Both the position numbers and the translations under genes were made by a program. A stretch of DNA of 64,000 nt. It comes from Amyelois transitella. Lineage: Eukaryota; Arthropoda; Insecta; Lepidoptera; Pyralidae. This document shows, piece after piece, positions 8-55,400 of the stretch. Each line of letters starts with the position of its first letter. Position 1 is the first letter of the stretch. The DNA is taken from positions 5,690,001 to 5,754,000 of the forward strand of contig NC_083524.1 of NCBI RefSeq assembly GCF_032362555.1, given 5' to 3'. The notes under the pieces are model-generated. The model was given only the letters and a program-made list of their open reading frames with translations. It was not told the origin of the DNA and searched no databases.

Positions 8-120
8 TTCATTAGGTACAAAGCCGAACTTGTAATAACTATATTTTTACTCAAATAAAATATATTTTTATAGACAGATGCTTAGATGCATCCTAACTTA
101 GGTCATGTGGCCAGGTTTTT

Positions 121-5882: not shown

Positions 5883-6408
5883 GTTTAGAGCACGTACCTA
5901 GCGTAGGTATGCCTAACAAAGACTACCTACATAAGTAAAAGGAATTATGATTTTTAAATCAACTCATTTAAATTTGTATTAACATTTTGCATCATATATT
6001 CTATTTTAATGTAAATTAACGCTAATATTAATAAGGAAATAATAATCGGTTCTACAACATATATTAACATCATAAGAACGAATAAAAACTAATTTTGTTT
6101 TGTTCACGTATCTCGATTTGTTTACATTTCGCGCGGTAGAAGTTGGGTAACCAGGCAACAACTTTTTACTGCATAATATGCAAAAGTCTTCCTTTCAACT
6201 TTTTTGGTTTGCTTGTCGCTGTCAATGTCAAAATTGAATTGACTATTTTCTATTGCGTGTTTACATTTTTGGTTTCGCATAAATGTTTGTAAAGTTTTAA
6301 AATATTTTTGCATTTTCTGATAAAAAAAGTAAATACAGATAAAATATTTTACATTCGCAATGTGCACTAATATTAATAATTTCTTTCTAGCATAGGGGAA
6401 ATCCTATA
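5883..6408. promoter_or_regulatory. Divergent promoter between the SCLT1-like gene and HDAC11
   Basis: The 526 bases separating the two start codons must carry both promoters and 5' leaders. No TATA box stands out. The clearest site is the X-box at 6147-6159. The rest is AT-rich and I see no other recognisable element. Confidence 0.6.
6147..6159. promoter_or_regulatory. RFX X-box
   Basis: GTAACC-A-GGCAAC fits the RFX consensus GTNRCC N(0-3) RGYAAC in both half-sites with a 1-base spacer. It lies 265 bases upstream of the SCLT1-like start codon. RFX factors drive ciliary genes in animals, which agrees with that gene being a centriole/cilium component. Confidence 0.55.
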
Positions 6409-11383: not shown

Positions 11384-14300
11384 CTATCTGGTGGTAGTAT
11401 TAAACTGCGCGTAATACTCGTCGGTCGGCGTGTTGTTGTTGACCACCTCCCTGTAGTACTTCTCTTTCTCCTTCTGCTGCAGAGCCAGGAGTTGGTTCTC
11501 TTCCATTAGCTGGCGGGCCATCTCACTGGATGTGAAGAGAAATGAATATATATTAGGGTAGGAGTGCTTACAAACTTGGGATTCTTTTTTAGGCGATGGT
11601 TTAGTTGAAACCTGTCACTAGTTGAATCTCAATTCTATCGTTTAGCCAAATATCTGAACGTGGCCATTCAGTCTTATCAAGACTGTTGGCTCTGTCTACC
11701 CTGCAAGGGATATAGACGTGACCATATGTATGTATGTAGATCCTAGTACCTTGGGCTCTTCTCCTAAGTGGTGAGGATGTTGCCCGGACTACAGCCAGGA
11801 CGAAGAATATACTGTAGGCACTTTTTATCCTTTTGCTTTTGTATGCATAGATAAAATCTCAAGTATTACCGTCTCTTTCTCTTGTCTGCGATGTCCTGGC
11901 GTGCCACTTCTCGCTGGATAGACTTGGCCAGCGCCTGCCATTCAGCCTCCATCTTCTCCAAAGCCTCGCGCTTAGCCTGTATTGATAACAGTTTTTTTTA
12001 TTATTGTTATTCATTCAGCCATACTGGACATCAGGACATAAACATAGCTTTTTCTCAAAGATGGATCAATGGATAGTGTACTGTACATATACTTAGTAGG
12101 TACCTAGGCATATCGTTTTACCGAAAATACATAACGATTAGAACCTAAGGAAAGTAGAACGAAAGATTCAAACTTCAAATGTTCAGTTTACCTTGCAAAC
12201 CCACCCTTAATTTGTTGTTAATATGTGAAGAGTTCATTCATGAGAGTTCACTCTTCTACTTCTTTCCTCATGCCAAACAGTTAAGTATCGATAATAACCG
12301 AACCCACCCTTGAAAAATGTGCGGCTTTCTGACAATTTTACCTTCGCAGCTATCATTTGTTCCTTTTGAGCAGCGTAGAACTTCTTCAGCTCCTCTTGGT
12401 TCATACCCTTGTACATGAAGCCGATTGCCCTGGCGCATATGGAAAACATTTTATGATCGTAACATTACATATTCCATACAGCTTTTGACAGAAACCAACC
12501 GATGCTCTTACGGTAAGGGAAAAATATCGTGAGGAACCTGCTCATTTAGGCCACTGAATGTGTATCCATGCATGATTTAATATTGGTTAGGTTCCCTCAC
12601 AACAACTGCGGAGGTCAGACAGGAGTCGTATGTAAAAACCTGACTTACCTTATCCAGGGATCACGGTCATTTGTCTATTACGGGCTTCATTCAAGACTAA
12701 ACTTGACTTGGACTTACGGCACACGGATGATCATGACTGCCATCACTTCAAAAGGATTCTATTAAGACTGACTACCAGCCTTAATAGAATCTTTTTGAAG
12801 CATAAGATAACTACTCTAAAAGCCTTGCAATATTTAGATACCTATTTTTTCCGAGCGCACTCTTGGCAACATCGGGGTTTTCTGTGAGCATGTCCGAGGT
12901 GAGGTTGTTGTACATCTCTGCCGTGTTATCAGCCTCTTCTTGCTCTTTCATTATCTGCTCCAGTTGCTTCTTTTCAGCGGCCTGAAAATTTGATTACCAA
13001 TTTAATGCTTAGAAAAGCAGTCTTATAGTGACTTCTCTGGTCTCCTAGGCCAGCAACCTAACTATAAAAACAAGAGAATAAAATCCAAAGCTTCGTTATA
13101 CCGCGTGTTAACCTGCCTCGGACGATAGCAACTTCCTCTCCATCTTATCGTAATGGATCTTGAATCTAGCATCCCATGTTATGATCTATAACAATTCGCT
13201 CCTAGACCAGCATTCTGTATAAACAGGAGAATACAAACCAAAGCTTCGTTATAGCGCAGGTTAGCTTGGCCTAGCCGGTAGCGACACTCTCTTTCCATCT
13301 TGTCCAGCTCACTAGCTCTGGCGTCGCGCGCTTTAATTGCCATCTATAACAATGCGATTATGATTACAGCTTGACCTTCCTAGTTCAGGATGTCGGTGAA
13401 CATGGAAAAACAACGGGTATACGTGGGGGTAATCTGTCTCATCCTTGTGTGTCGCTCCCGAAGCATATGTGTAGCTCCTGGTTTATTTATATCCATGTTT
13501 CGACATTTCGCTTCTCATATTGTTCCGTATTCAGCATTAATTTTTTAATGCATAGGGTCGTTTAACTTGGAGTTAATCACTAATTCACTACATATCATGA
13601 AGTACCCCAATTTTCTCTGTTAGTATGTATGCGATAATGTCGGAAAGTTGTGGACAGATTTTGTTCCTGTTTAAAATGTTGGAAAGGTTTCTGAGTAAGG
13701 GGCCCGAGCGAAGCCGAGGCAGGTCGCTAGTTATGAATAAAGACATTAATTAGATAAAATTCACCATGTATGCAGCCTCAGCCTTCTTTCTCTCCTCTTC
13801 AGCTCCCTGTCGCTCCTGAACTTGCTGTTCTAACCACGCGTTCTTCTGAGCGGCCATTATCTTGCGGCGCTCTTCGAAGTTCAGGTCTTCTCCTTCAAAT
13901 CTGACAAAATAAAGTAGAATATTAACGTATAATTGTCTTCTAAGCTATTATTGTTGTTACTACATGTTCTTCTGATCGGCCATTATAGATCTTGCGAAAC
14001 TCTTCAAAGTTAAGATCTTCGAATCTTGACGAAAAAATACAATCGTGTGCTGTATTTATGAGGTTATAACCACCACTTCTAAACTTATGTTGTACAGCAT
14101 AGCAGGACCTTGGGCTCTCTGTTAAATTATTACTTTCGTCTACTTACTTCTGCGCACTCGACATGCCGACTGGTTCACCGTCGGAAGCCCTTGGTGGTAG
14201 TTGTTTTTTCAGTACATCAGGATCGTTGAGATCGAATTCTCGTCTGTCTTCAGGACGCTGGTAACTTTGACGGTAAGAATCTATTTCAATTCCCATGCGA

Positions 14301-15588
14301 CGGCGTTCCTAAAAGATATCAATATTATTATATTTTAGTGTTATTTTAATTTTATGTGTATAACTTTCAGTTGAGTGAAAGTTATAAATATAAAATGACA
14401 TCTTTAAAAATAAGCCATGTTTAAAAAATCTTCAGAAAGGAGGATAAGTAATTTCATACTTTTATTGTTGAATTGGAATAAAAAATAAATAAAACGTGCA
14501 CAAAATCCTAACACGTGTGATACAAGAGGTGCAGGAAATTATTTAAATAGGTTCCTAATTAAAAGACAGTTAAAAGAACAGATTCTCTTTAACTACTTAT
14601 AAAGATTGTAACTACCTTCTTCCCAGTTGCAATTGTAGAGAGTTACCTCCTTTTCCCTAGCTTCCAGGACCACGGCCAGGTTGCTGTCCTTTATCATCTG
14701 CGTGGCGAAGGCCAGGTTCTTTCTGTTCTGCTCATCCAGCTCCGCTCGCTTCTCTACTATCTGCCGCTCTAGGAACGGTACATCCACCTATCAGTGCAAA
14801 TCACGTTTTTAACTTAAGGCGTGGACGATTTTGTCGTGCGATAAGCTATCGCTGTCCCGTTTTAAGTCATAATAAAAAGCGAAACAGCGATAGTTAGTAG
14901 GTACTATAGAATTAGGTTATTCAGTATTTTTCTAGGCCGCAGATGAGAAGCTTATGTCGGTGACTGATTCCACATCAGCACCACATCTTTGTTCCCAGCA
15001 GCGATCTTAATTGGTGCCTCAATAATCCTAAATTTTCGTAAGAAGAAGAAAAGTGTTTTTCCAGTATAGGTACGTAGTAAGTAGTGACTTAGGGAAGAAA
15101 CTAACTTTTAATACTAGTTTAAACTATAAGTAATGTAAGTGAATGTAGGTCCCTATTATTAGGGTAATGGAGAGACACTATGAAAATGATTCAATCCCTG
15201 ATTGACCGACCCTTCAATCCTAGTCATAGCTGGAAAACGGGATAATTGGGGAGGACCCAGGAAGGACGCAGCCGAAACTAATGGTATAAAGACTTATTTG
15301 TGGATTTCTGGTAAAATTTAAACAAAATGCTACGCAAATCTTGTTGTTCCTCGTGTTAAAGATTCTTTTTTTCTCTCCAGCTCCGATCGCCGCTGTTTCT
15401 TTGTATTTTGTGCCTCCTTTACCAAGACCAATTAAGGGAATTGTAATAAAATTATAAAATCTTACGCCAATCTTCCTATTCCTTGCGTTGAAGATCCTGG
15501 ATCTTCTCTCCAGCTCGCATTGTCGCCGCCTTTCTCTATTCTGCGCCTCCTTTCGGTCACTCTCGTTTGCTATTTGCATTTTCATCAT
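11384..15588 (-). CDS. RIBC2: RIB43A-like protein with coiled coils (RIBC2), 9 exons
   Basis: Exons in transcript order: 15466-15588, 14647-14787, 14148-14308, 13765-13900, 13239-13343, 12842-12981, 12342-12429, 11870-11976, 11384-11525. All borders are GT-AG. They total 1143 bases, or 380 residues, matching RIBC2 (about 380). Family landmarks appear in order: RIFNARNRKIGVD across exons 1-2, RREFDLNDPDVLKKQLPPR and KFEGEDLNFEERRK across exons 3-4, then LTSDMLTENPDVAKSALG, KGMNQEEL and the C-terminal DEYYAQFNTTTR. RIB43A proteins sit inside ciliary and flagellar doublet microtubules as microtubule inner proteins, so an axonemal role (sperm tail, chordotonal neurons) is expected. Start: ATGATGAAAATG after an in-frame-stop-free leader; the second or fourth codon Met could also serve. 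Decayed copies of exons 1, 4 and 5 lie in the adjacent introns. Confidence 0.95.
11560..11739 (+). repeat. Family-A SINE-like copy, 5'-truncated, in RIBC2 intron 8
   Basis: Begins within the family at ACAAACTTGGGATTC and ends with TAGACGTGACC(ATATG)TATGTATG. It is inserted antisense to RIBC2 between exons 8 and 9. Confidence 0.8.
12746..12800. repeat. 21-bp fold-back hairpin in RIBC2 intron 6
   Basis: Arms 12746-12766 and 12780-12800 pair with one mismatch around a 13-base loop. It does not match either SINE family and has no flanking direct repeat that I can see. Confidence 0.8.
13085..13185 (-). pseudogene. Decayed tandem copy of RIBC2 exon 5
   Basis: About 101 bases resemble the functional exon at 13239-13343: both share CAAAGCTTCGTTATA, the CTCTCCATCTT region and the CTATAACAAT acceptor. 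The similarity continues into the flanking intron (CTCCTAG..CCAGCA). The copy has frame-disrupting changes, in-frame stops and a lost GT donor (GGAT), so it is not usable. Confidence 0.8.
13668..13733. repeat. Lepidopteran retroelement end fragment
   Basis: Contains CCCGAGCGAAGCCGAGGCA followed by GGTCGCTAGT, a recurrent end of dispersed repeats in moth and butterfly genomes. Assigned from general knowledge; the class is not resolved. Confidence 0.4.
13966..14037 (-). pseudogene. Decayed tandem copy of the 5' part of RIBC2 exon 4
   Basis: Matches 13829-13905 over the GTTCTTCTGA-CGGCCATTAT, CTTGCG, CTCTTC-AAGTT and GATCTTC blocks, with a 4-base insertion (AGAT) and a deletion. It lies in intron 3 upstream of the functional exon. 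The frame is broken and there is no donor. Confidence 0.75.
15334..15421 (-). pseudogene. Decayed tandem copy of RIBC2 exon 1
   Basis: In intron 1, about 132 bases downstream of exon 1. CTCTCCAGCTC, CGCCG, TGTGCCTCCTTT and the donor side AAGATTTGC|GT match 15466-15555. A 1-base loss in a run of seven A residues shifts the frame relative to the upstream part. The start codon region was not copied. Confidence 0.75.
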
Positions 15589-16468
15589 CTTGAAGCGTTA
15601 ATCAGTTTTATATCCCAATAAAAAACCTCGCACGTAAAACTGAAATACAAAAATTGGCACCGAACAAACAACTCGCGTTGCTATGGGATGTTATGACGAG
15701 TAGAGGGGATTTATGGCGAAAAGGAAATTCTAGGGGAATTTAATGAGCAAAGAGGTAAATTTCGTATAATTTTTTTAAAATTAATTTGCAATTCTTTAAT
15801 TGTATACATATATTACGCCTCTTTTTTGCTTAATTCTGTTGTTTAGGGTTAAAGGTGTTTTCTCACTTGAAACTTTGAAATTTTATTATATGAGTATTTT
15901 TAAGAGTGCTAGTCAATTTTACATCCATTTTGTTATACTGAAGTTTTTAACATTCTAAGTGGAAATTGCTATTCGATAGCAAAACATAAAAATTAACAAC
16001 ACTTAACAGTGAATGCGTTCTAAATTATGCATACGACTTTAAACGCCCTTCGATAACTACCTACGTGATACATTGGAATAACACATGTTATATAGAACAT
16101 TTCAGCTGCTATCATTATTTTGGAAGTTCTACCAAACCACAGCATTTTTACCGCTGGCAACACAAAGCGCGAATGTATGTGTGCGTCACCACGATACGCT
16201 ACTACATGTGCGAGGCGGCTTGCGTATCGTAGCACCAGCGTCTCGTAGCGGATCGTAGTACTGCTTGTACTGTTCACCCTGCCGCGCGCTTCAGTAAGAT
16301 CATTTGGTGTTTCACTCACTCGGGTGCCGATCGCCTAAGAGCGTGAGTGACGCGTGCGTTCTTCCTATTAACAATTCGTATTCGGTGTTTAGCAATCTAT
16401 TTCGGGTAAACAAAACAGTGTGTGCCGTGCCAGTGGGTTCGTACAATATCGCTGTGTAATGTGACGGT
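15589..16468. promoter_or_regulatory. Divergent promoter region between RIBC2 and the class V aminotransferase gene
   Basis: 880 bases between the two start codons. The half facing the plus-strand gene (about 16140-16460) is more GC- and CpG-rich than its surroundings. It contains TCAGT (16291-16295), the arthropod initiator core, and CGTATCGTAG/CGTAGCGGATCGTAG runs at 16213-16258. The RIBC2 side has GTTGCTATGG (15677-15686), one base from the left part of the classical X-box. Transcription starts are not determinable. Confidence 0.45.
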
Positions 16469-22400: not shown

Positions 22401-25400
22401 GGGGATGAAGGCGTGAAGTAAGGAAGCAATTTGTTAAACCATTTTCGGATACAATCCAGGAATATGTTTTAGAAAACTACTCTCTGTAAACATGAGAACG
22501 TATCGTAGATTGGATTAGGTTTCATGTAAAACGTGGTTTTCCCTTTTATCCTTGTGAGATATCCACGTAAAGAGAGCTATTAGCCATCTCTTTTAGGTGG
22601 ATTAAAACTAACTTTTCTAAAGAACCGGATACTACATGCCACACGCTTTGTTGATGAGGCGAGGCGATAAGATCGTCTGCTTACGAATGCTTTGCATCGG
22701 CGGCCTCGCAGCATTATCGTGATCGTGAGTTGTAAAAACTAAATTAGTTTGACGGATCTTTTAGCTTCGTTGCTTGGCAGAAGTTTATAGATTTTCTTTA
22801 GTAAGTACGAGATAAAATGGAATATGGAATAAAATGGAATAGATGTAAGTAAGGCGCTTTAAATACTTCTCGGAAGAAAAAGAGACAGGCTGTCCGATCT
22901 GATCAATTGTTCTGTATTTTTTGTTAACTATATTGAGATATAGTTAACAAATTAGTTAATATTTACTGAGGTAAAATATCAAATCTGTATTCATCAAGGT
23001 GCCGTCTTTCAAGTTTTGGTTGTAGGGCTGTAGAAGTATAACATTAGCACAGTTTTACTTTTGCTTATTCGAAATGATAATAACTATAAGTAAAGATATC
23101 ATATCGAGGTCATTTGAGCAAATCAGAACACAACTCGGGCCATGAAATTATGTTTTCGATTTTTATTTTTTCAAAGATATCAGTGATCGAAGATAAGACA
23201 CAAGGCTTGAGTCCTAATAGGAAACTTTTCAGAAGTGTTCCACTCCTAGATTTAAATCTAGATTAAATATAGGACGATATGGTAGGAAGTTAAGTAGTGA
23301 TTCATTTTCTCAGGAATGGTATAACAACTGGTATCTAAGTGAAGAACTGAGTCAGATTAAGATGATGATAAATAATTACATCATTCGTAACGCAAAGCGT
23401 ATCTATAATTTATGATTTGATCTACCCTTTAATCTGTAAATAACTTATGATGTTTTTGTAAAGAACTAGATTAAATCTGCCGCTTCGATGGCCTAAAATA
23501 GATGATAATATAAGCCTCGGATAAAGGCATTGGTTCTAACGTCGCGTAAAATACTTTTTAAACTTGTGTTTACTATGACAATTTTCCAATGGGGTTACTT
23601 TAAGAACTAATTAAACATATGTAAACGAATCGGCTATACCTATGGTTAACCAGTAACATTGTATGTAACACGGATGGATTTTTTTATAAAAAAAAATATT
23701 TGCTTTAAATGCTCTATTTATTATAAGTTTCTCTCTCTCTCCCTTTCCATACTCCTTATTACTCTCTCACTTCGCAGCTCGGTAACCCATTTCAGTATCA
23801 AACCAAGTCAGCATGTATATTCTAATAATCTTTAGTTGTATCATCAGTAGTTTAGTTTTATTGATATAAGTACATAAAATCACGCCTCATTCCCGAAGGA
23901 GTTGGCACAGATTACATCTTTTTACTTGCCACGATCCCTGTATACCTACTTTCGGCCCTTTCATATTCAGAACACTCATCTTGCAAGCTCGTCCGTTCAG
24001 GTAGAAGTAGAAATATAAGAAGATTTATTTTCAAAATAGGATACAGGGTATTGTTTATTGATGACAACCTGACCTTTTGCCGGAACGTCAGTTAAGAGTA
24101 TTTTTAGTTTAATTTTAATTACAATTTTATCAAAATGTGGACTTATAGGCAAGTTTGTCTAGTCCTAAAACTTTGTGGAAGTTACCCATATTAGTGAAAC
24201 TAGTTTGTAAGACAGGTTTCGCGTTTCACTCGCGTCACACTCATAGGTGTTTGTAGGGTCAATATGTGACCGCTTTTAACTTTATTTGACCAGTTGTGAT
24301 ATTTACACCAATATGACAAATGGGAAAGTGTTGTAGCTATTTTTACACTTCAGACTTAAGTTTGATTTGCTATAAATTGTAAAAGTATATATTGTAGGTT
24401 TTCCTCAATTCAACATGTTTTTGAATCTATATAAGTGAGTACAAAAGAAATCCACATTTGTCATCAATATGATTTCATAGGTACTTATACACAATAATTT
24501 CTTCTAAAACCCGAAACGTCATACTATTTTTTATTGCTTGCTTATTATATAATCCTACTATTCTAAAAATGTTCTTGGCGCACCTAATTCGTAGTGCCAT
24601 AAAATGATGTATTATAAAGAATGATAAGACCCTTGTCACAAATACGATACCTAATTTTATAGCGTATTTGTAAACAAATAGGTTTGCCTATTGTATTCAT
24701 GAGGTTAGGTGGGCCTATATCTGTTTGTTTGTACATATATATCTCGTTACGCAACGCCGACCTTCATGTGTTTTTGACCGGTTTTTATTCAATTAGTTCC
24801 ATTATCAGTCATAGTTGTAAACATTATGATAAGTGAATATAAGAATATTGTTATATCAGTGTTTCGTCATTTTGATATGCACAGGAAATAAAATTGTCTT
24901 CATCAATTTACGTTGCTGGAGATTAAGAATTAATAAACACGTAAAAAATGCTAAATTCATAATGAATATGTATTTTCTTCTATTAAAAATATGAATTTTC
25001 AACCGATTTCAAAGTAGGAGGTTTTTAATAAGTCTTTTTTTAGAAAAAACTAGGCAATGTTGACTACTGAACTACATATTTATATACAAACATGTAATCA
25101 TGAGTTTATCCTTACGGGGCAGACAGGCCCAACGATCTTGAAAAGACTGGAAGGCCACGTTCAGCTGTGGGGCATAATTATAAATGATGAAGATGTATGA
25201 AATGATTGGTAATTGGTCTTGAATTTAATCTTTCATTACAAAAAGCGCAATTCCCAATGTGAAATATTTCGACATCTTTCGATATTTTATTTTCGGGAGA
25301 AAAGAGCGAGACATTATTTGCTTGTTGGAATACAGACTTACTAGACATTAAACAATTAGAACAAATATTTAAACATAGTTTTCATAAATATAACCCTTTT

Positions 25401-28400: not shown

Positions 28401-31400
28401 GTAAATAAGGTTGTAAAAAAGTAATATTGATTAAAAACTAAATTCTTAAATTATAAAATTGTCGGTTACTCTTTCCATGGGTACTATTCACAAGTGAAAA
28501 TAATGTTTATCGATAATTCAACGTTATCCATAGAAGTAATGCGATATCCAAATCGGCCTCAAAGTGGTTTTGTCACAGTCTGAAGGCAGTCCGGTGGCTT
28601 AGGCATTATCATTACTTATCATTGCAGTTATCTGAAGGTCGGTGGCCGTGGGTCAGATGACAAATCGAGATACAGGACGGGCGTTATAAATATTTATTAG
28701 TTTTGTTGTTATTAACATATACATATATCACGTCTGTGTTTCTTACGAGGCAGACAAAGCCAATAGTGACGAGAATAAAAGGCTTCGTTTGGCTAGATGA
28801 AAGTTAAAATAAAAAAATAGTGATACAAATTATATGTAAAAGTGTATTATTATATGTTTATGTATGAACTATGAACAAAATTAAGATATTTACGTTAAAC
28901 TATTTGCTAGAACGAAACACATCTCGGAAAGAAAGTTTTGACAATAAAATCGAAAGTGTATTTTGCATATTGGTGAAATTTTTCCACGACATGTTTATCT
29001 GGATTTATAACTGACAATATCTGATTTAATATATGTCTACATCTATTGTGGATGAAATAGGCAAAGATAGTCGTGATAACAACTAATAAAGTCTAGTGTT
29101 CGGGGACAAAACATTTGAATTCGTTTGGATATTTTGGTTTCCTGTGGTCATTAATGGCCTTGTTGGTGATATTTTCGATTCGTATCAAGGTCAGGTTGGA
29201 AAAAAATTAATAACTAAATCTGCCTACGACTAGTTCAGCCTCATATGAAGAAGTTAATTAGCTTCGCTTTAAAATTTCTAAATGAATGTATATTATCTAC
29301 GAAACAATATAAATTTATAACCGCAATTAATTTATAATAGATAAGTTAAAACTTAGATTTGATATTAAAGAATAATTTTTGTTATACATTTGTCTAATGT
29401 GAAGTAGATTTCATCCAGAACAAAAGTATACATATTTTCTGCACTAACTAAATACTATTATGTGTCTACCTATTTTTAATTTCGTCCGTTCCTAAAGTCT
29501 AAAGTGCGTAAAAACAAACACTAATTAGTTGTTGACAGCTCGAAAGTAGGCCAAAAGGTTGACGGACTGACACCGAGACGATGTTTTCATATATATAGAC
29601 GAACTGTCGTTGTTGTGACTCAATTTTCTTGGCGTGACATTTTACTTAAAATGGTTCGAGAGGAAAACCGGAATTCCAACAAATAAATGCAAAAGTAAGT
29701 TAATCTTTTTTATTTTGTACCCTTACCAATTAAAACACTAAACCTCTGAAGTACTGAAAAGGAAATAAGTAATTCCATATGGGCGAAAGCTACTGACAAT
29801 ATATGTAATTTTAAATCATGCAATTGCTACTTGCGACGTTTAGGGTACACTTGACCTGACTTTTCACTAGAACGTCCCCGATTTGTTTAAGGTTCGAGCG
29901 TATTGGTCTTTCTTCTTCAAAGTTCCTATTTTCATTTCATGATTGTATGCATATGATATAGTGCATGAAGTAAAGGTAATATGCAGGGATCGTGGTGATG
30001 TTAGAGGGATGTAGTCATTGCCTACCCTTACGAGAAAGGGGCGTGATGTTTTACGTTTTTACTGAGCTGTTATGACATGTGGTTTTAAAAAAAAGGTCTA
30101 TATAAATTACTGACAGTCGATTGGGTCATGAAGAATGATCGTATAAACTGATGGGAACGCGCAAACAGTAAAATTAATTATTCAAATGCGTGAACGCATT
30201 TGAACAATTTATTTTCAAATGCGTTCGGAATCTACTGAAGTAGATCCCGAGATAAACATACAACTATTTTTACATCTTTGTAAAATTAGAAAATCCGCCG
30301 TGTTTAAAAAGCTAATCTTTCAGACGCTTGCTATTTTCAGACACTAGATACTTATCGAGCTGCTTGCCAGATCTATTTATTATTTTTTGATATTATCTAC
30401 ATACAAACATATCACGTCTTTATCCCTTATGGGGTAGACAGAGCCAATAGTCTTGTCAAGACAAGGCCACGTTCATCTGTATGGTTTAATGAAGGATTTG
30501 AGACTCAAATACTGACAGTAGAATATTGTTTAAAAAATATACAAAATAATTTTAAATAGGTATGTAGAAATTTTACTATAGATATATACTAATTTAGTCA
30601 TATGATGAAAATCTTCCGAGTTATATGCAAATTAATTTGCCTTTTGTGCCTTTTATGGTTAAAAAAGTTAGATAGTTTTTAAGTAGCATTATGTCCGTGT
30701 TCATAACCATACATAGAATTGTGCCTCGTTCCCGTAAGGGTAGGCAGAAACTACATCTTTCTACTTGTCACTATCCCTAATATTTCTTTTGTCCACATTC
30801 TTACCAGAAAATTTATGAGAATGCGTTCATATCAATTTGGTCTTATATAGAACATTTCGCCTTTACAAGTTTGAGAGCAAAGAAATGGCCTTGTTTGGGT
30901 CAGGGCTTTCATCAAGGTGTTTTATGAGTACTACTTTAGTTGGCTTAGTATCTTTATAGGATTCCAGGTTTCATTTTGAATGACAGTAAATATTCGTACA
31001 AAATGTTTTTTTTTTTAATTTGCGCGTATAGGTTGGTTTTTGTAATTGGTACTACATTCATCGTGATGCTGCTGGCAAAAGCAAGTAATCTATACAACCT
31101 TTATGAATTCGGAATTACACACATAAAATAACCTCTTCATTTATCCGATGTCTAATAAAGACTCTCATTCATATCAGACTTGAATGATTTCTCAGTGACT
31201 CACTGTCGGATTCACGTGAAGGAATCCGCTGTCACCTCGAGTAGTGGCCATTTTGTAAAAATACTACAAAGATTGTTCTGTTCCCTTATCATAACGAATG
31301 GTGTTTTCCTTCCTCTTGTAGCAAAACAACTTGTTTATTTCTATATACCTAAAGCAAAACATTGTAAAATTTTATCAGTAAGGCCGTTTGGACAAGAATC

Positions 31401-43400: not shown

Positions 43401-46400
43401 ACATTATTACGAATGTGCTGCATAATAAATGTAATGCTAATGTTGTAATGGGTACTAAAACCACGACCTACGACGGCTGCACCTATCATTCACATAGTTT
43501 TACTCTGTTTACGAAGTCAGTATTATTTCTTTGACAAAATTAGTTCACAGAATTATTTATAGTGACACGCTATTAATGTATTCTTAATTTATTGAGATAA
43601 CAGACAGCCTGGCGACTTTTCAAGAGTCATAGACAACAAGTCGTAAAATAAAGGAATCAAAATATCAAACAATGCAGGCAGATGAAACAATGCTCTTCAC
43701 CATAAAACGGATCGATAGAACACCATCTTTTTGTATTGACTCACTATATGTGAGATCGATAGGGGGTGTAATTTTATTTTGAATTTATTTCAATGTTTTG
43801 AGTATACTCCTAAGATCATTTAATAAGTGTTCTCCAATATCAGAACAATATTAAGGAATATCAAACGACAAGTTGCGGCATATAAACTTAAAAAAAATTG
43901 TAAAAATAATCTTATAATAGGATTGTTTGCTAAAACAGTTTTCGCGTTTTCTTGAAAGACCTGTACCATTATTTATCGCTTTTGGGATTTGAACAATTGT
44001 CATAAAATGAGTATTAGGATCGATGATGTTGCCTATTTGCACTGAAGAAAAACATTAAATACGTACCTACGTATTTAATGTTTTTCTTAAATAACGATTG
44101 AAACAGGTTACGATTACCTATCGTAACCTGTTTCAATCGTTACGATTCCAATACGACATTGACTCTTTTGATCAATAGCCAAGACATTAGAGATAGTCTT
44201 GTTTCGAACAGCGTTTAATTAGATAGTTTATAGTGGAAAATCACTATGTTCAGGCGCCAGATGGACAGATGCCAACCTTTCACCTTTCTTGCAAAGGCAT
44301 TGTTTGAGATAATTATCTTATTATGAGTGTATATTAAAAGGGAGAAACTCAAAATGGATTGGTCTATATCTCTGAGATAATGATGAATGTTATTGTTTTT
44401 AAATTCAGTGTAACGAGTCATAAAATAAAGAACTTGATACATACTAACAAATCAAAGCGTGCTTTGTGATATTTCCAAATTGACAGTTTTTAGGTATCTA
44501 ATTTATAATTATGAGTGTGTAACGGATATTTCAATTGGTTAATAAGTATTAATACGTATCATCAAATTAAAGCCAGATTTTTTTAACATACTTGAAACTT
44601 TCATTGACCCGAAGTGTCCAAACTCAACTACAACTAATTAATGTAAAGAAATCTTTACCAATGTCATGCGTAGGTAGATTCGGTCGGTGAACAAGTTATG
44701 ATCGTCACAAAGTATGCCTCCCACGACGGCTGTTTATATTCATACTGCTTTTAACTGCATATAACGGCAAAACCAACTTGTTAAATCTAGACTTCTTATA
44801 AGGTTAATACGCTGACACCTATTGTAATTTTATCTCGTCAGAATTGTTAAATGTGTATCTACTAAATTAATGGGGAGAAAAACGTTTAATAAAACGTTTT
44901 TGTTAGTTTGTGCAATGAATGGGTTTTTTATTGTTATGTTCACCATGACTTACTGGTTAAAATATGGCACTAGTCAAAGGCAAGTTTTGATAGAATATTG
45001 TAGCAGATAAGGCAAATGTAGCATTCAGAACTCTATCCATCTTAAGCCAAATTTAGTTTTAATAAGCCTTTTTTATTTAGTAACAATAATAATTTAAAAA
45101 AATAATGTCACACCTACTCTTTCGGATGAGTTTAATAAATCTGCTTGCGGCGGAAAGCGCATTTTAATTTTATTTTTGCCAGACTAGCGCGCCAGATAAA
45201 AATTTATTGTGAATCAAAATACTATCAATGTGGTGTGCTATACTTTCTCAGTTGCCAGAGCATTCGTTTCGTGCTAAATCCGTATTTTGCTAGTTGATAC
45301 AAAACGTAATGACGATCTCTTTCCGTCGCCTAGTTGGCAGTACTCCAACGCAAAAAGCTCTAGTTTTGATTGCTGAAATTGATATAACAGTTTCTGGTAT
45401 TTTGTTATGTTTACAAAGACTTCAATCATTAGATATTACTGCATCTGTTAAATAGCTAATAAGGTTAAAAATTCCCAAGATTGGTTGGTGCACTTTGTTA
45501 TTACTATAACTGTGCAAAATTTTTCTGTGTACAATTTTTTTTTGGCTATGTCATTCAGTATAAGAATTTGTGCAAGAATCCACTTGGACGTATAATATTA
45601 ATTGTTCAGAGTATGAACATAATATACAGTATTAGTTAACTGAAATCTAATGATAATAATGAGGACACAGATTTTCGCAAAACTACAGTAGAAACAGAAT
45701 TATGTGAAAGTGAGTGAAATTAACCAGGAATATATTTTAGAGATATTGTTAAAAAATGAATATGAATTTTAAATACGATGCTTTAAAAATGAAATTATGA
45801 CGTAAACAAGCTCCTTTTATCCGATTATTAATATTTATAGTGACAGTAATATATGTAAGTCCTTAAGTGTAAGTGAATCACGTTATACACCCAATAAAGG
45901 TGTCAAGGATGTAAATTCACTGAAATACAAAGTAAATTACAATTAATAAAATGAACTTTACTCAAACTGCGCACAAAATTTCGATGTTTCCGGTAAAGGG
46001 GCTTGTTTGTGAAAGAGACAGTGCTATAAGAGGGACAAGGAGCGATATAAAACAAATGTGACCCTGAACGTAAGGCTGGCCTACTCCCGCTACCGATGGA
46101 TCAATAATCCGGGACCCCTCCAGGAATAAGGATGCGTAATACCGCCGCGTAGTAACACTGCGTAGTGGGCCAAAAGAGCAATGTACTTTCCTTGAAATGG
46201 CTCAAGAAGTTTAAGGCCGTGAATGAGCGGACGAACTACGTTGTATCATAGAATACATAATGCCACGTAATTTGTATCTCGGTTACGATGGTTCTACTCG
46301 TACTGATATCTTTGTAAAATTTTTGGGCCGTTTTGAGAGTTATAAACGTCGGTGTAGCCTAATAAGTATGCAGGGATCGGGGCAAGTGGAAAGATGTAGA

Positions 46401-49400
46401 ATTTCCCTATCCCTCCGAAAAAGAGGTGTAAGTATGTGTGTGTATGTAGTCTTTTTAAAATTGGCAAAATTTTAAAAAGACTTTACATACACATGAATTT
46501 TGCTTTTTACAATTTATATTTACAATAACATTTTGGGAACGCTTTATTAGTAATGGTACCTACTATTTTTTTTAATACTAAGAAGTAAAAAAAAACGTGG
46601 CAGTGGTTTTCGTTGTTAATTTATTTTCATGTCAACAATATTCCATGCAAAATTAGAATTTCATAGATGTGGTCATGGTCACGCGCTGGAATTTATCATA
46701 TCGGTATTACTTTTCCTATATGTTTGATCTGATTGGTTAAGATTGATGTTAAATCTTTTTGCAATCTGTTGTCTAGGTTAACGGTAAATATTAGATTTAT
46801 CAAGTATCTTTTTATATGCACGCTCAATCTCTTCGGTACCGCTATATAATACAGGTATAAAAAGTAGAAGTACTGGTTCCATAAACTTCCCACTCTTTCG
46901 CCCACGCGTGTCTTGGGTACCATCTAAAGTTATTTCAATGATGTCAGTTAATGCATTATTTTAAATACTTTTGTCAAGGTTTTGCTAATTACATCAACAT
47001 TTTTATCAATATGGTTAAATATAAATTATAACGTCTCAAACAGGCTTAGACTTATAAACTTGGGATCCTTTTAGGCGATGGGCTAGCAACCTGTCACTTT
47101 GAATTTCAATCCTTTCATTAAGCCAAACAGTTGAACGTGGCCTTTGAGTCTTTTCAAGACCGTTGGCTCTGTCTACCCCGCAAGAGATTTAGACGTGATT
47201 ATAAGAATATATGTCTCATACATTAACCATTTGCTTAAAATCTCACCAATATCATTTATATTTACAGGGTAGGTATTTAATAATAGCTCTTGAATTGAGG
47301 AATTCGTTTCACCGCCAAAATATCCGGTGAATTCTATTTTTGTGCTTCGCACTTTATCATTAGCTCAATTGATGGCTAAATTGGCTGAATTGATAAGCCT
47401 GTTTGTTTTTGTTTCGTTCATTCATACAATTCGTTTCGTATGGTGAATTGTTTTTACACAAGATTCCATTACGTCACACGCTCATTAAAAGATAAGGCAG
47501 TTATTGCAGTTTTTTATTCGGTATGCAAATAAGTTTCTTGAACTGCATTTTTTGTGACACTATTTTAAAGTTTTGATCTGATTAACTTTCCCAGATCTCC
47601 TTCTGCCAGTTTTTCTAATATTTTTGGCCTATACTTTTTCTTTTATTTTTTATACATAAATATCACAAAATCATTAAAAATACATACTCACATATATTTA
47701 TAGTTACTCGATGACATGAAGATACTCGACAAATCAATGACTAAATGAACAAATATCTGGTACAATACAATTTAAAAAAAAGTTACAGTTTCGCCACCGT
47801 CCATTTTATTCTTTTTTTAGGCAACGGGCTCAATATCATCTTGTTAGCCAAACAGCTGAACGTGGCCTAATTGTCTTCTCAAGACGGCTCTGTCTACCTC
47901 GTAAGGGTTATAGATGTGATTATATGTATGTATTTTATAATGGGTCCAACTTTAGGTAGTTGATTCGTTTTCAGAATGACATCATAATCTCTTTATATGC
48001 AGTAATAACACTGATGTTTTACTTGGCTTGACACTTCTCTGGCTAAAAACAAGAAATATTTAATAAAAACTTTAATTTTACTGCTTTATAATTAAACTAA
48101 CTTTACCTACCAATATTAACATAGATACACCTTAGTAGATCATTTCATTGCTATAGATTAATCATATCATATTGATAAAAAGTATTTACTTAAAAAGCAA
48201 AGCCGTTCTTCTTTTTGAGCAACCGAATTTCAAACGAATTCTTTAAGTCACGGGTTATAAATACATCTCGCTTAACCTTGGAATTTGTAACAATAAAAAA
48301 TATAAATCTTACTAACACGTTGTACATAATACATACACCGACACATATACTGGTGTGAACTGGTATAGAACAATGGACTGTTGTGAATAAATATAAATAG
48401 GTTTTAATTTCTGAGCGGACATTTAAAGTTTTTACTTCAATTTTTTTTAATCACTTTTTACACAAAATCTTTCTTCTTCTCTTTCTTTCCCTTCACTTCC
48501 TTTTCGCTTCGTTCACTTTCATCACTCTTTTCATGCAAATTCGTGTGTTTTTAGTACTCTTGACCTACCTTGATTTAAAAATCACAGGTACAACTAACTT
48601 TATCTATTGAATTATACTGAAATAAATAGGGATTGTCTTGCTTTAAACTTTTAGTAATACTAATATATTCTTATAATTTCCTTAATAGTAGCAAGTAGTT
48701 TACCTACGGAGTCAGAAGAAAATGTTGTCATTTTGTAACTCAAAAGACAAGGAAACAGATTAGTTAAGTGTTATGACTTAGGCATGTAAAAAATTCCTAT
48801 GCTGTGTCTCTTAAACACTGAGTAAAAAAGTGGAACCACCTTCTGAGTTAGATCGAGACGTCTAGTAATAACTCAGGAACAATAATATTGATCCTATAGT
48901 TCAAAGTACAACTCTTTTAACAATTTAAAATACAAAACCTTTGCGTAGTAGTATCGCAAAAACGTGAACAATAGTTAGTACAAAGCCATTGTTGTGTTAG
49001 TAGTCGCACTCGGGTTAGCTCGTAAATACGGCCACGTGTTCGGCATAAATTCTCGCATTCAAGGTTGGGGGAAATAAAACCGGTTTGTGGACGCTTTTTA
49101 TGAAAGCCTTTATGTTTTAGTATCTTGTAATCGATATCAGTTTTTAGTTATATATCTTTAAATAGTCAATTAAATATGTTTTAATTTTTGATACTCCTAA
49201 ATAGATTTGGATGAAACTATACCTACTTACACGCAGGGCCGTTGTCAAATTGTTCAAAATCAGTTGTTGAAAAATTGCAGAGATGATAGAAATTTCTTGA
49301 GATTTGTATTAAGAGGATGCTAATACAACAATAATATTTATTGTAACAAATACAATTTTTATACATATCGGTCTACAAACATTAACAACGCACATCACCG

Positions 49401-52400
49401 CCTTAGTTAAAAGCTTTGCTCTTATCTTAAGAACAATGGCCACAGCCATATCTGATTTAGGTACTTTTCTGCATTATATAGACATAGTAGAACTCAGTCA
49501 GGCAGAATCCGTGGCACAGATTATAATAGATATATCTATTCGGAGAACAAATATCAGTGTAACTAAAGTTCAATTTGCCCGCCCTGTGAAATGACTCAAA
49601 GTCCCATGAGTCGCAAGCTGGCATGTTTACTACTGCGCAGCGAAGTGAAGAATGTCAACAAATTAAAGAATAACACCACAATAACAATGGCAAAAACCCA
49701 GAATTGCAAGAAATATCTTTGAATTTTTTGTTAAAAATTATTTAACAAATATTTCGTTTTGTTTGAGACTCGAACCCGGGAATGCGTGAGGTAAACAAAG
49801 ACGTTATAACACCATGAATGGGACTTTCCTTAAAGTTTTCTTTGGTCTGCCTACTTCACTTATATGGTTAAATCTTATGATCTTTAATTTCGGTTGTTCG
49901 TTGATAGGCATAATAGCTTTCTATTTGTTCGAACTATACAAATTAAATTCAAATTATATACACATTCATAAAATTAAGCCCCTTACGCAAAAGGGTAGTC
50001 AGATACTAAGTATATCTTACCACGATCCCTTTATATTTCCTCACTTCATCTACATACAAATTAAAACCATAATTACAAGGCTTTCAATACTAGGCAAAAA
50101 TTTTCATAGTTCTAATGTTCACAGTTAGTATGAAAAGCTCTTATGAAAAACATTGTTTTCAAGGTCTACCCACGTGGTTCTTCGAGTATCATTTAAATAT
50201 ATCAATGAGTCATTACTAACTACAACCCAACTGAACAAACAATATTATAAACAAACAAATGTGGAACTCGCAAATCTTTGATTGTTAATGAGTTTACTTT
50301 GCGATTCGGCGATACATTCCAGCTATAATTAAAAATTATTGCCAAAACAAAAATTTCGGAAACAAAATCCGAGATATTTAGTAAATATCCACTTTTCGAG
50401 AATAAAACGTTTTAACCCCTTATAATGTCTCTTACGCCTTTAGTTAAAGCGCAAATAAAGGCTATCTTTTTCGCGGATAATATGAGCGGACGACTGATGA
50501 AAACAGACGAAAATTTCAACAGATGTACGGAAAAAAATATTTTATCTTACATACGAGTATAAGTGTAGTATAAAGTGTAAAGTAAAAGAATAAAGTTTTG
50601 ATTCACGCACGAAATATAAAATTTTAAACATCCTCAATCAAAAGTTACGGGATACAATGTTTTGGAAAATGCTTCCCTCCGTAATGTTTTGTTCTCAAAA
50701 TGCATTATTTACGTATATTTGGGAAGTTAAGTTCTCAAGTTACGTATAACACTACGTGACCTGCCATAACGATGTTTAAAATGTTCTCAGAATTGTTATT
50801 GTTTTGTTTCTGTTAATAATATGCACGTTTATATACTAGAGTACGCCCACGTGAAGCAAAAAATCGCGCTAATTTTCTTTTTCACGGCAATTTCGGGAAA
50901 TCTTTTCTTCATGTACCTCTAAATCAAATAAAGAACCTATCAACTGCCAAATAGGTAATCTTTAAATCCAGGGTTTGGGCTGTGGGTTGATTTAGTACAT
51001 CACATAGTCGGTTAGTTTTCTCTTTGTATATTTAGCTAGAGAACATTCGAGATTCCGCCCGGGTAAAGAACCTGTGAAAAATAAGGTCAATCAATTTACT
51101 TCCGTAAATTTTTTTACTCCTTAAATACGTTAAGTTTATTTAAACTCCCCGCACTTCGCTTTGTCAAAGAAACAATTTAAGACAATTAATCAGATTTCTA
51201 TGATGTTACCAGTTGCATATTCAGCTTGTTTTAGGGCGCTTTATTTTCTAAGATTATCTGCATTAATAGTTACTAGGTCTGTTCAAATATTTAGAATTCT
51301 GTTAACAGATGACTTTACTTGCCTTTGAAAATCAACACAGATAGTATCTCAGTACATTTATTAACATGTTTATGGGCCCGCATGGATCCGTGAAATGTAA
51401 TAAACATTAGAGTGAGCGTAGTAAAGTGAACTATACCATTTGGACTCTATAGTATTTATGTTTATTGATAAGTCCATGACATCACCATGTTTGTTACACA
51501 TTTTTAACAATAGTGAGACAAATCAGATTTCTAAAAAAAGGAGTTAAATATGCCGTATGGTTCCCGACACCAAGAGACAGAATTCTATTTCGGACTCCAA
51601 GAGTTGCAAATACAGGTAGGAGAAAATGTATTTATGAAAACCATTGTGTTTGTAACATGACAGCTATAATACAATCATTATTGACTCAGTTAATACGTTA
51701 ACTGAGTCAATAATGATTGTATTGCTATTGGCATTTATTTAGCAGTAATACGTTACTGCTAAATAAATGCCAATAGCAACATTATTACTATAGGAAAACA
51801 TTATGTATGTATACATGCGTGAGATTTTTTTGTTAATAAAGAAACTATTGATTTCATATCGTTTAGGCTATGGTTTGGCAAATTTTCACAATCTCTGAAT
51901 ATTGATCAGCCTCGAGTTTTGTGTCTATTGATTCTGTCTACCCCGTCAGAATGAATATTTCTACCTTTTATTTTTTATAACAAATAGTTAATTCCGTAAG
52001 CATAACTTAGCGTAAATTATTTACAAAATTTACATTAATAAAATTTAAAAACGTGCTTTCTGTAAATATGAATTTAAAAAAAAAATGCAAGTGTTATAAT
52101 AAGTAAATTCCGTAGCGGTTTCGTCGCAGCGCCGAGTCGTAGAAATTTCGTAGCGCGTAGAAAACATTAAATTTATAAAATAATAGGTAAATTCCGTAGC
52201 GGTTGCGTAGCAGCGTCGAGTTGTAGAAAGAAACCCTCGCAGCATGTTGGGTCTTATTACTGGAATGTCCAGTCGGTTTTTAATACAACGTAGCCGTAAA
52301 AATGATAAAAAGTTTTATTCCATAGCGGTTCCGTAGCATCAGCGCTGAGTCGTAGAAACTTCGTAGCGCGTAGCTTATGTAACTTAAATTTACTGTGATG

Positions 52401-55400
52401 TCACAAAATTAAATTTGTAGCTTTGCATGAAGACAATTATGAATACAGATGAAGCGAGAGAGTAGTACTACTAATCGTCTTCCATTTATCCGTCTTAACT
52501 ACGTCCTCCCCCCGATTTTCGTCTAAATCGAAAAAATGCCCTTTCGAAATAAAATAAACTTTTAAACTTATCTATCACTTAGCTTCTTCTCTTTGCTGGA
52601 GTTTCGTAGGGCCAAATCAGTATTTTCATCCTTATACATCTATTTTTGAACTCAAAATCGTACGCTTCATTGCGCAAGAGAAATACGGTGGCCAATGAGA
52701 TTCGCGATGCGATCAAGGTCGCTTCGAGTATTTTTGAGATAGTGACGACAGCACCAGCATTCAGAGACACGTGTATGTTGGGACGAGGTGGAAAGGTTTG
52801 TATGTAAATAAACTTTTATGTACGTATGTATACAATTTGAGACGTATGGTTTTTGTTACTTTGGATCATTTGATTTCGCGATGAGCGATTATTGATTATT
52901 ATGGAAATAAGCACATTTATCTAGTTCAAGTTTCCGTGCCAGTCTCGTTTTCCAATTTACGAAATTACCACGCATGTCTGGTAGTTATGAAAATCATAAT
53001 TATAAAATCAATTAAAAATAGTTTGTACCAGCTGCTTCTCTTCCTGGGTATATTATTAAATTCTATCAAGAGATTTGTTTACAAATGTGGGATTTTCTTA
53101 TAAGCGATGATGGGCTAGAACCTATTCACTATCTGAATGACAATTTCATCATTAAGCTACCCAAGCTCAACGTGGTCTTGTTTTGGTGAGTAAGTCTTTT
53201 CTTCGATATTGCCTCGTCTACCCCGTCATGGATAAAGACGTGATACGTATGCCATTTAGGTGAAACAGGCAAAAGCTTGTTTAGTAAACAAAATACATGT
53301 AGCGCTTCACAATCGCAAGTATTAGATAGAAAAATAATATTTATTTATCATAATCTTTACGTTCGAACGTTTGCATAAAATATTATCGCAGTAAATAAAC
53401 ATAGGCACTTAGCAAACACGTGAACCTAAAGAGTTATGTGGACTTCGATTTTTATTGTCATGTAATAAATAATTACTAGCGTCTGCCCGCGGTTTCACTT
53501 GCAAGTAAATTGTAGCCCCCATAAAGTTTCATCCCGATTCAGTAGAATTTAAATGAGCAGAAGGCCAATGACCATTTCTGAATTCAGAGAATTGAGTCTC
53601 TGAATTCATAAATGGTTATATAAAGATTATTTATTATCTTGCCGTGCCGTGTCGTTCCCGGCACCAATACAAAAAAGAATAGGACCACTCCATCTCTTTC
53701 CCATGGATGTCGTAAAAGGCGACTAAGGCTTATAAACTTGGGATTCTTTTTTAGGCGATGGGCTAGCAACCTGCCTCTAGTTGAATCTCAATTTTATCGT
53801 TAAGCCAAATAGCCGAACGTGGCCATTCTGTCTACCCCGCAAGGGATATAGACGTGACCATATGTATGTATGTATTTATTATCTTTATCCCTAACACAGG
53901 ATAAGGCCAATAAACTTGAATTGACCAAAAGGCTACATTCAGCTGTATTCGTACTTAGGCTAGTAAGTAAGCAAAGTGGGGTGTATTATTATATACATTA
54001 TGTATGTCAATATGGGTTGACAAAGTTAACCATAGGCTTTCACGATTAATTAAGTTATACCACCTTTTGCTTTACTTGTACACTTTGGTCGGACAGGGTA
54101 CCTTAACTTCCAATCTCATAGGCATGTCACATAATACATCTTTGAATTCAATAAAAAAAATCAACTTTAATTCAACTGAATCACTTTTTCCAAATTTAAC
54201 TAAATCTCTTTATCTCTGACTGTAAGTATACAGACTTAATGTATAAGGCATTTCTGACTGATTTGCATCTTGGATGTTTAAATATATAAGTATTAGGGAA
54301 TTATAAAATAAAAGTATTGTTAAGGTATCCCATAACTTACTTTGGTGCTAGCTCAAACAGTGTAATTTGTCCCGAATATTTTATATTTTCCCTACTAGAC
54401 CAGCAAAGGCACACCCCTTCCTGCTTACGACTTTGCAGTATCGAGTGAACGAGTATGAAGGTCATGGTAACAAAGGAGTCTTATCAACGCTTATCAGTAC
54501 CACTACCAAGGGAGCGAGACCTCTTGTGTTATTTGAAAACAATCGATATTTTTTTTAATGAAAATATTTACAATCTTATTTTATTGAGTTTGATAAAATA
54601 TCGATATAGTTGTTTGTAGTATTTTGTGTTTGGGAATACGTGTGAATTGCATGCAATATATTATTCGTTATAGATAGTTTACGCCAAACTTTAGCGGTAA
54701 CTTTGGCATGAAAAATTTATACGGTGCAACATAAATTTTGCTGAACTGAAGATTTGACAGCTTGTTACGTTTTGCTTTTCGTAATATGTGCTACAACCCA
54801 CATCTTTTTTTCTCTAAAAAAAGAAAGACACAGTAAATTATTTCAAGCGACAATTATAATATAGATACGAGTATACCAAATTGACAGGGTTATTCCTCAT
54901 TTTGGTAACATGTAGTGAATCATAAAATTGAAGCTTACTTAAAGCTTGTATTTTTAGTTGTACTTCAGAAGGCAATTAAAGCCACAAGGCTTCACTCTGA
55001 TCATGCTTCGTTCGAATGACATTATGTTAATATTGACTTTAAATATTAGTATGTACATATCGCAAACATCGAATCGAACTGCTTAGAGATAACAGTAATG
55101 TGATATACCTACCTTCTGGCGTTAGTCACGGTAATACTCGTAACCTCACTCCCGAAGAGGAACCTGTATTTGACTGGAGTAAGTGAGGTTGTTATACGAA
55201 GCGATTTCTGTCTGACTTCCGCAACCTTTCCAGGGGATCCTAACTCACATTGGATTTTTACACATCCAGTTGCCACTAATGTAATATCCTACTTTACATG
55301 GTGAATTATCATGTTCAGACTGCGACATTTAAAAGTTAAATGATTTCGAAATATATTCATGAAGCCACCTGTGGATTTGAAAAGATCAGATTTTAGGTAA

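Follow-up and report, generated by a model that had tools for sequence, protein, structure and literature searches.

A 64,000-nucleotide stretch of the genome of the pyralid moth Amyelois transitella (C20:5690001-5754000, hereafter the window, in an assembly of 327,366,114 bases and 33 contigs) contains two places, loci A and B, at which two perfect hairpins lie next to each other. A third such twin was found elsewhere in the same genome, inside a repeat whose other copies retain the uninterrupted sequence. There the native centre, once present singly, now stands twice, and the space between its two copies is occupied first by the left flank in inverted form and further on by the right flank, likewise inverted; loci A and B appear to have been built in the same way. 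The twins are best read as the two-ended form of the known one-ended foldback or template-switch insertions. We consider it somewhat probable that each goes back to a single staggered break: its two ends would have been copied backwards and then joined, in one event and without participation of a mobile element.

Twin hairpins at loci A and B

Locus A (44045-44142) consists of two adjacent hairpins with arms of 21 and 23 bp, and locus B (51668-51779) of two hairpins with arms of 26 and 27 bp that have 2 bp (TT) in common. Complementarity is 100% in each of the four stems, in agreement with an earlier note on this stretch, which had described twin hairpins at both loci. Their parts are as follows.

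44045-44065/44068-44088: left hairpin of A, 21 bp, loop CC (2 nt)
44092-44114/44120-44142: right hairpin of A, 23 bp, loop TACCT (5 nt)
44045..44069, plus strand: native left flank of A with the first copy of the centre, TACCTA at 44064-44069 (TACC if a 4-bp duplication is read)
44070..44088, minus strand: inverted copy of the left flank of A, 19 nt following TACCTA (21 nt, 44068-44088, on the 4-bp reading)
44089..44091, no strand: joint of A, 3 nt (AAA), without microhomology
44092..44114, minus strand: inverted copy of the right flank of A, 23 nt, 100% complementary to 44120-44142
44115..44142, plus strand: second copy of the centre, TACCTA at 44115-44120, with the native right flank of A
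51668-51693/51698-51723: left hairpin of B, 26 bp, loop TACG (4 nt)
51722-51748/51753-51779: right hairpin of B, 27 bp, loop TACG (4 nt)
51668..51700, plus strand: native left flank of B with the first copy of the centre, TAATACGTTA at 51691-51700 (TACG, 51694-51697, on the 4-bp reading)
51701..51723, minus strand: inverted copy of the left flank of B, 23 nt (26 nt from 51698 on the 4-bp reading)
51722..51745, minus strand: inverted copy of the right flank of B (to 51748 on the 4-bp reading), with TT at 51722-51723 as its joint to the copy before it
51746..51779, plus strand: second copy of the centre, TAATACGTTA at 51746-51755, with the native right flank of B

The tips of the two hairpins of a pair share a word in direct orientation. 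At locus A the longest such word is TACCTA (6 nt, the copies 51 apart) and at locus B it is TAATACGTTA (10 nt, 55 apart), while the longest inverted common word is 4 nt at each locus. Since the tip word has the same orientation in both hairpins, at A as at B, the two members of each pair would come from one ancestral centre. The tip duplication of 4-6 bases claimed previously holds for locus A, where the direct duplication is 4-6 nt depending on the reading, and has to be widened for locus B, where it is 4-10 nt. Six hairpins of the window score at least 17; when its 64 kb were shuffled locally 200 times at order 2, the mean number was 0.0 and the top score 15. Chance is therefore excluded for loci A and B, as had been asserted. 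The region 44000-44200, searched across the 327 Mb genome, matches itself alone and has no paralogue, and the hairpin stretches of A and B have no other match inside the window.

A third twin and its ancestral sequence

A sample of 30 stretches of 10 kb each (L001-L030) was taken from the same genome, of which 295 kb are readable, L001 containing 5 kb of N. It holds a third twin, L021:2023-2077 and 2085-2137 (span 2023-2137), whose hairpin loops are of about 0-1 and 0-1 nt. This twin lies inside a common repeat resembling a short interspersed nuclear element (SINE), with 196 matches to the consensus, 110 of them at least 100 bp long, spread through the sample and the window. SINEs of this kind are known from Lepidoptera; a text search of the literature for the words of the repeat matched no paper.

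When the native halves of the L021 twin were joined and compared by BLAST, 56 matches spanned the junction, and the insert was present in none of the 40 matches listed. Relative to the consensus of the repeat, 4 positions are covered by both halves, and 61 extra bases lie between them. Alignment with five other copies of the repeat, all uninterrupted, shows that L021 carries a duplicated ATTA and a 61-bp insert, which begins with 28 nt of inverted left flank, one additional T counted in, continues with TTCATTC (7 nt) and ends with 26 nt of inverted right flank. The inverted left copy is exact over 27 nt and the inverted right copy has 2 mismatches in 26. The 4-bp reading of the duplication (ATTA, the copies 65 apart) was adopted because it restores the sequence of the other repeat copies. 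The single rule proposed for the two loci of the window is thus supported by its recurrence at a place where the ancestor is known.

A listing for the SINE-like repeat itself gave 5 insertion candidates. Among 99 insertion candidates across all repeats that were tested for inversion, 14 have an inverted match of at least 9 nt to at least one flank, and the L021 twin alone has long inverted matches to both, exact over 27 and 14 nt. In the other 13 the better side does not exceed 13 nt and the poorer side 7 nt.

Hairpins scoring at least 13 number 11 in the 64 kb window, some of them imperfect, and 29 in the 295 kb sample, low-complexity arms having been dropped before the sample was counted. 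Window and sample together hold 49 hairpins scoring at least 12, of which 13 have copies elsewhere. The latter were left out of the counts of 'unique' hairpins (10 in the window and 18 in the sample with a score of at least 14), a filter that removes the L021 twin itself. Window and sample contain three adjacent hairpin pairs. Permutation predicts 0.113, and of 2000 permutations one had as many as three, the window being preselected. The single pair outside the window is by itself not striking. The region L021:990-8885 is dense in hairpins, with six scoring at least 13 in these 10 kb, two of them forming the twin, against 23 in the remaining 285 kb of the sample.

Origin of the twins

If t denotes the centre and rc the reverse complement, the derived form of a twin is A t rcA B t rcB (A and B here being arms, not loci), and algebra suggests A t rcB as its ancestor; this ancestor is observed at L021 and would be the former state of loci A and B. 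That the insert is an inverted copy of the sequence beside the break holds at L021 by comparison with the SINE copies and at loci A and B by the complementarity of the arms. Both flanks are copied at all three twins, so that copying from one end only describes none of them. The net gain is 51 bp at A, 55 bp at B and 65 bp at L021; the inverted copies measure 19-28 nt (left about 19-28, right about 22-27), and the joints consist of 3 nt at A, a 2-nt overlap at B and 7 nt at L021. A 4-bp direct duplication fits all three twins (TACC, TACG and ATTA). Microhomology that could have served for priming is found at both ends of B (TTA, 3 bp) and at the left end of A (TA, 2 bp), and no clear one is seen at the right end of A or at L021.

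Taking these regularities together, we propose the following sequence of events. (i) The ancestral single-copy A t rcB would break, or a fork would stall, at t with a short stagger; we infer a break rather than a stalled fork. (ii) The left 3′ end, on the top strand, would be extended by backward copying of its own left flank over some 19-28 nt, and (iii) the right 3′ end, on the bottom strand, by backward copying of its own right flank over some 22-27 nt. (iv) The two new ends would then be joined, through the 2-nt microhomology at B and with 3 nt at A and 7 nt at L021. The centre would be duplicated in direct orientation because both ends carried t, and the backward extension of each flank on itself from a single staggered break would place the tips in the same orientation. 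The stagger may have been of 4 nt, 5′ and filled in, as for a trapped topoisomerase II. The copying might be ascribed to DNA polymerase theta acting in synthesis-dependent microhomology-mediated end joining (SD-MMEJ), or to polymerase delta together with non-homologous end joining (NHEJ). The similar copy lengths on the two sides suggest a common limit, for instance clipping of both 5′ ends.

Parts of this scheme resemble processes already described. Stem-loop synthesis by polymerase theta starts from 2 terminal pairs (PMC11292364) and SD-MMEJ prefers repeats of 2-4 bp (PMC7407515); snap-back priming on few base pairs, inverted templated insertions and microhomology at the joint are features of SD-MMEJ and theta-mediated end joining, as these articles present them, that the twins may share, whereas here each product contains two mirror-image copies of 19-28 nt and some ends have loops of 0-2 nt. 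In yeast, HO breaks, which leave 4-nt 3′ overhangs, yield one-ended foldback insertions of mostly about 5-34 bp according to the abstract and in their majority shorter than 14 bp according to the Discussion (PMC11724301). They resemble the twins in their short inverted copies from beside the break, in microhomology at the start of copying and in joins of the NHEJ or alternative end-joining type; they differ, in the account given there, in that one end is copied and the other captured, with a 41-nt loop, while the twins have copies from both ends and a doubled centre. The double inverted insertions of the same study come from distant loci and are not copies of two flanks. Duplications of 2-4 bp, signature ID17, have been attributed to filled 4-nt overhangs left by Top2 (PMC11477040), to which the direct duplication of the twins may correspond: at L021 the repeat copies indicate a length of 4, whereas A allows 4-6 and B 4-10. 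In what that source says of ID17, no inverted flanks were noticed.

Several observations weigh against the break model. The loops are of 2 and 5 nt at A, 4 and 4 nt at B and about 0-1 and 0-1 nt at L021; a primer that folds back within one molecule hardly accommodates a loop shorter than 3 nt, and hence, at least for L021 and the left side of A, inter-strand switching or end ligation is the better fit. One additional nucleotide is required for the right hairpin of A. The ancestral state has been deduced at A, where the genome offers no paralogue of the region, and at B from that locus alone. The 4-bp duplication is not forced, A permitting up to 6 and B up to 10. The L021 tips taken alone are ambiguous, with a direct word ATTAA (5 nt, 62 apart) and an inverted word TTAAT of the same 5 nt, and the direct ATTAA implies an ancestor that the repeat copies do not show. 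Lastly, the unbiased 295 kb sample holds just one twin, at least one pair having arisen outside the window in 155 of 2000 permutations, and three word patterns of the SINE-like repeat in twin order gave 0 (9-mers), 1 and 1 matches genome-wide, against 0.0002, 0.47 and 0.47 expected by chance.

The same sequence would be produced by serial template switching at a replication fork, in which one nascent strand departs from the native template at t, uses the opposite strand for a backward copy of the left flank, moves to the distal end of the right flank, copies this towards the centre and re-enters the native template a few bases upstream of its point of departure. This is a serious alternative, to which we nevertheless give distinctly less weight. 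It needs no hairpin loop and hence suits the loops of 0-2 nt at L021 and A, and microhomology of 2-3 nt is present at every junction of B (TTA, TT, TAA), but clear microhomology is missing at several junctions of A and L021. Furthermore, it requires three switches per event and two separate inverted stretches in an outward-then-inward order. A standard four-point switch copies one contiguous stretch, which weighs against it; the L021 insert is rcA followed by B, which are not contiguous in the ancestor. Template-switch mutations that make a perfect stem from a flank in a single event have been documented, with 4-nt loops enriched in ribosomal RNA data, and the model given there apparently uses one inverted stretch per event (PMC8794818), while the twins have two.

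Returning to the three twins, they could alternatively be footprints left when a DNA transposon that duplicates 4 bp of its target was excised, the flank ends having been capped as hairpins and opened 20-28 nt inside. We regard this as improbable. All three can be read as carrying a 4-bp direct duplication, and hairpin flank ends are known for some transposases; these hairpins are normally opened near the tip, however, and blunt ones would leave no loop of 2-5 nt. No transposon-end sequence was noticed at any of the three twins, and the duplicated words ATTA, TACC and TACG suggest no obvious common target. Among the causes listed in the earlier note, snap-back synthesis during end joining and template switching thus remain the best, whereas a transposase or otherwise hairpin-capped ends lose ground, no element ends having been noticed and the loops being irregular, of 0-5 nt.

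Two independent foldback or template-switch events side by side are a still weaker proposition. Single hairpins are common here, as the sample counts show, and one-ended inverted signatures exist in the SINE-like repeat (see below), but the common direct centre of each pair, a 6-nt or 10-nt word at A and B and a 4-bp duplication at L021, is not expected from independent events. An assembly or sequencing artefact is about equally unlikely: the analysis is based on the assembly, but three separate loci obey a regular internal rule within chromosome-sized contigs, and known foldback artefacts are far longer. The shape of the twins also resembles that of the mitochondrial double-hairpin elements, in which two adjacent hairpins form a repeated element. 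A mobile double-hairpin element or palindromic miniature inverted-repeat transposable element is hardly credible here, since no further copy of A was found in the genome or of the A and B pairs in the window, and no relationship is apparent between the arms of one twin and those of the others, each locus having arms of its own that equal its flanks. The correct order would also result if a small contiguous circle had been inserted the other way round, but the circle would have to be about 50 nt, and we mention it as a curiosity.

Occurrence in the genome and significance

The reversed-pattern controls for the three twin-order SINE patterns gave 0 matches each. A one-ended inverted pattern of the same repeat gave 7 matches at 6 places, with 0 in its reversed control and a chance expectation that should be about 0.47, its words having the same base composition as those of a twin pattern, which points to real one-ended events. 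One match of a twin pattern shares its start with a one-ended match, and its coordinates imply both hairpins, the second with a 6-nt loop. We do not count it as a proven fourth twin, the estimated chance of such a word among the 7 one-ended matches being about 5%. At C23:1010779-1010869 of the same genome (G000) two one-ended matches on opposite strands overlap, and their coordinates imply a larger palindrome.

Pairs at L016:5867, L028:4996 and window position 30170, in which one partner scores 9 or 10, were likewise not counted as twins; about half a pair of this kind is expected by chance according to our estimate, and the pair at L016:5867 has no common tip word in its sequence. At L028:8883-8935 a SINE copy continues beyond its 5′ end with its initial bases repeated in inverted form, with 22-bp arms. 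This hairpin, fully covered by 5 of 108 matches, so that a few copies may share it, may derive from self-primed complementary DNA, a different route; L002:964-1007 looks similar in another repeat. In the window, 30170-30226 is a nested hairpin with a repeated CAAATGCGT, shaped as if by a single template switch whose return point lay upstream of its starting point. The weaker hairpins of the window, some imperfect and these presumably older, include:

12746-12800
14349-14396
22920-22951
30170-30226
46448-46482
53571-53616

Elsewhere in the window, 52096-52373, a few hundred bases from locus B, holds three diverged copies of a unit of about 50 bp (around TAAATTCCGTAGC). The divergent frames 3198-4091 (minus strand) and 4113-4850 (plus strand) encode a DDE_Tnp_4 (Harbinger-like) transposase and a MADF/BESS protein, and Harbinger-like elements usually have two genes so arranged. 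An open frame at 15220-15597 (minus strand) has a RIB43A match, and the open reading frame 1102-1596 has 4 protein homology matches.

Engineered breaks and cancers are known to yield inverted templated insertions of the one-ended kind, and the mutation type can therefore not be called undescribed as a whole, as had been suggested, nor can it be tied to this lineage, the analysis having covered this one genome; of its two-ended form, a limited search of the literature found no description. A survey of perfect inverted repeats covers 118,019 genomes, and its main text does not contain the words Lepidoptera, insect or Arthropoda (PMC13155455).

Extrapolated from one twin in 295 kb, the genome would contain roughly a thousand, with a Poisson range of about 30-6,000. 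A bolder proposal, which we hold to be doubtful, is that of a recurrent germline mutation: a topoisomerase-II-like 4-nt 5′ stagger would be filled, the ends clipped some 20-28 nt inside, and the 3′ tails copied backwards and joined, giving a twin hairpin and a 4-bp duplication, and hundreds to thousands of such scars may lie in the genome. If the two-ended form, with one case of verified ancestor and a 4-bp duplication, has indeed become fixed in the wild, population genomes would reveal the geometry of breaks, the length of copying and the way of joining without induced breaks. Moreover, the generation of two perfect hairpins in a single step would bear on the origin of new stem-loops and of fragile palindromes.

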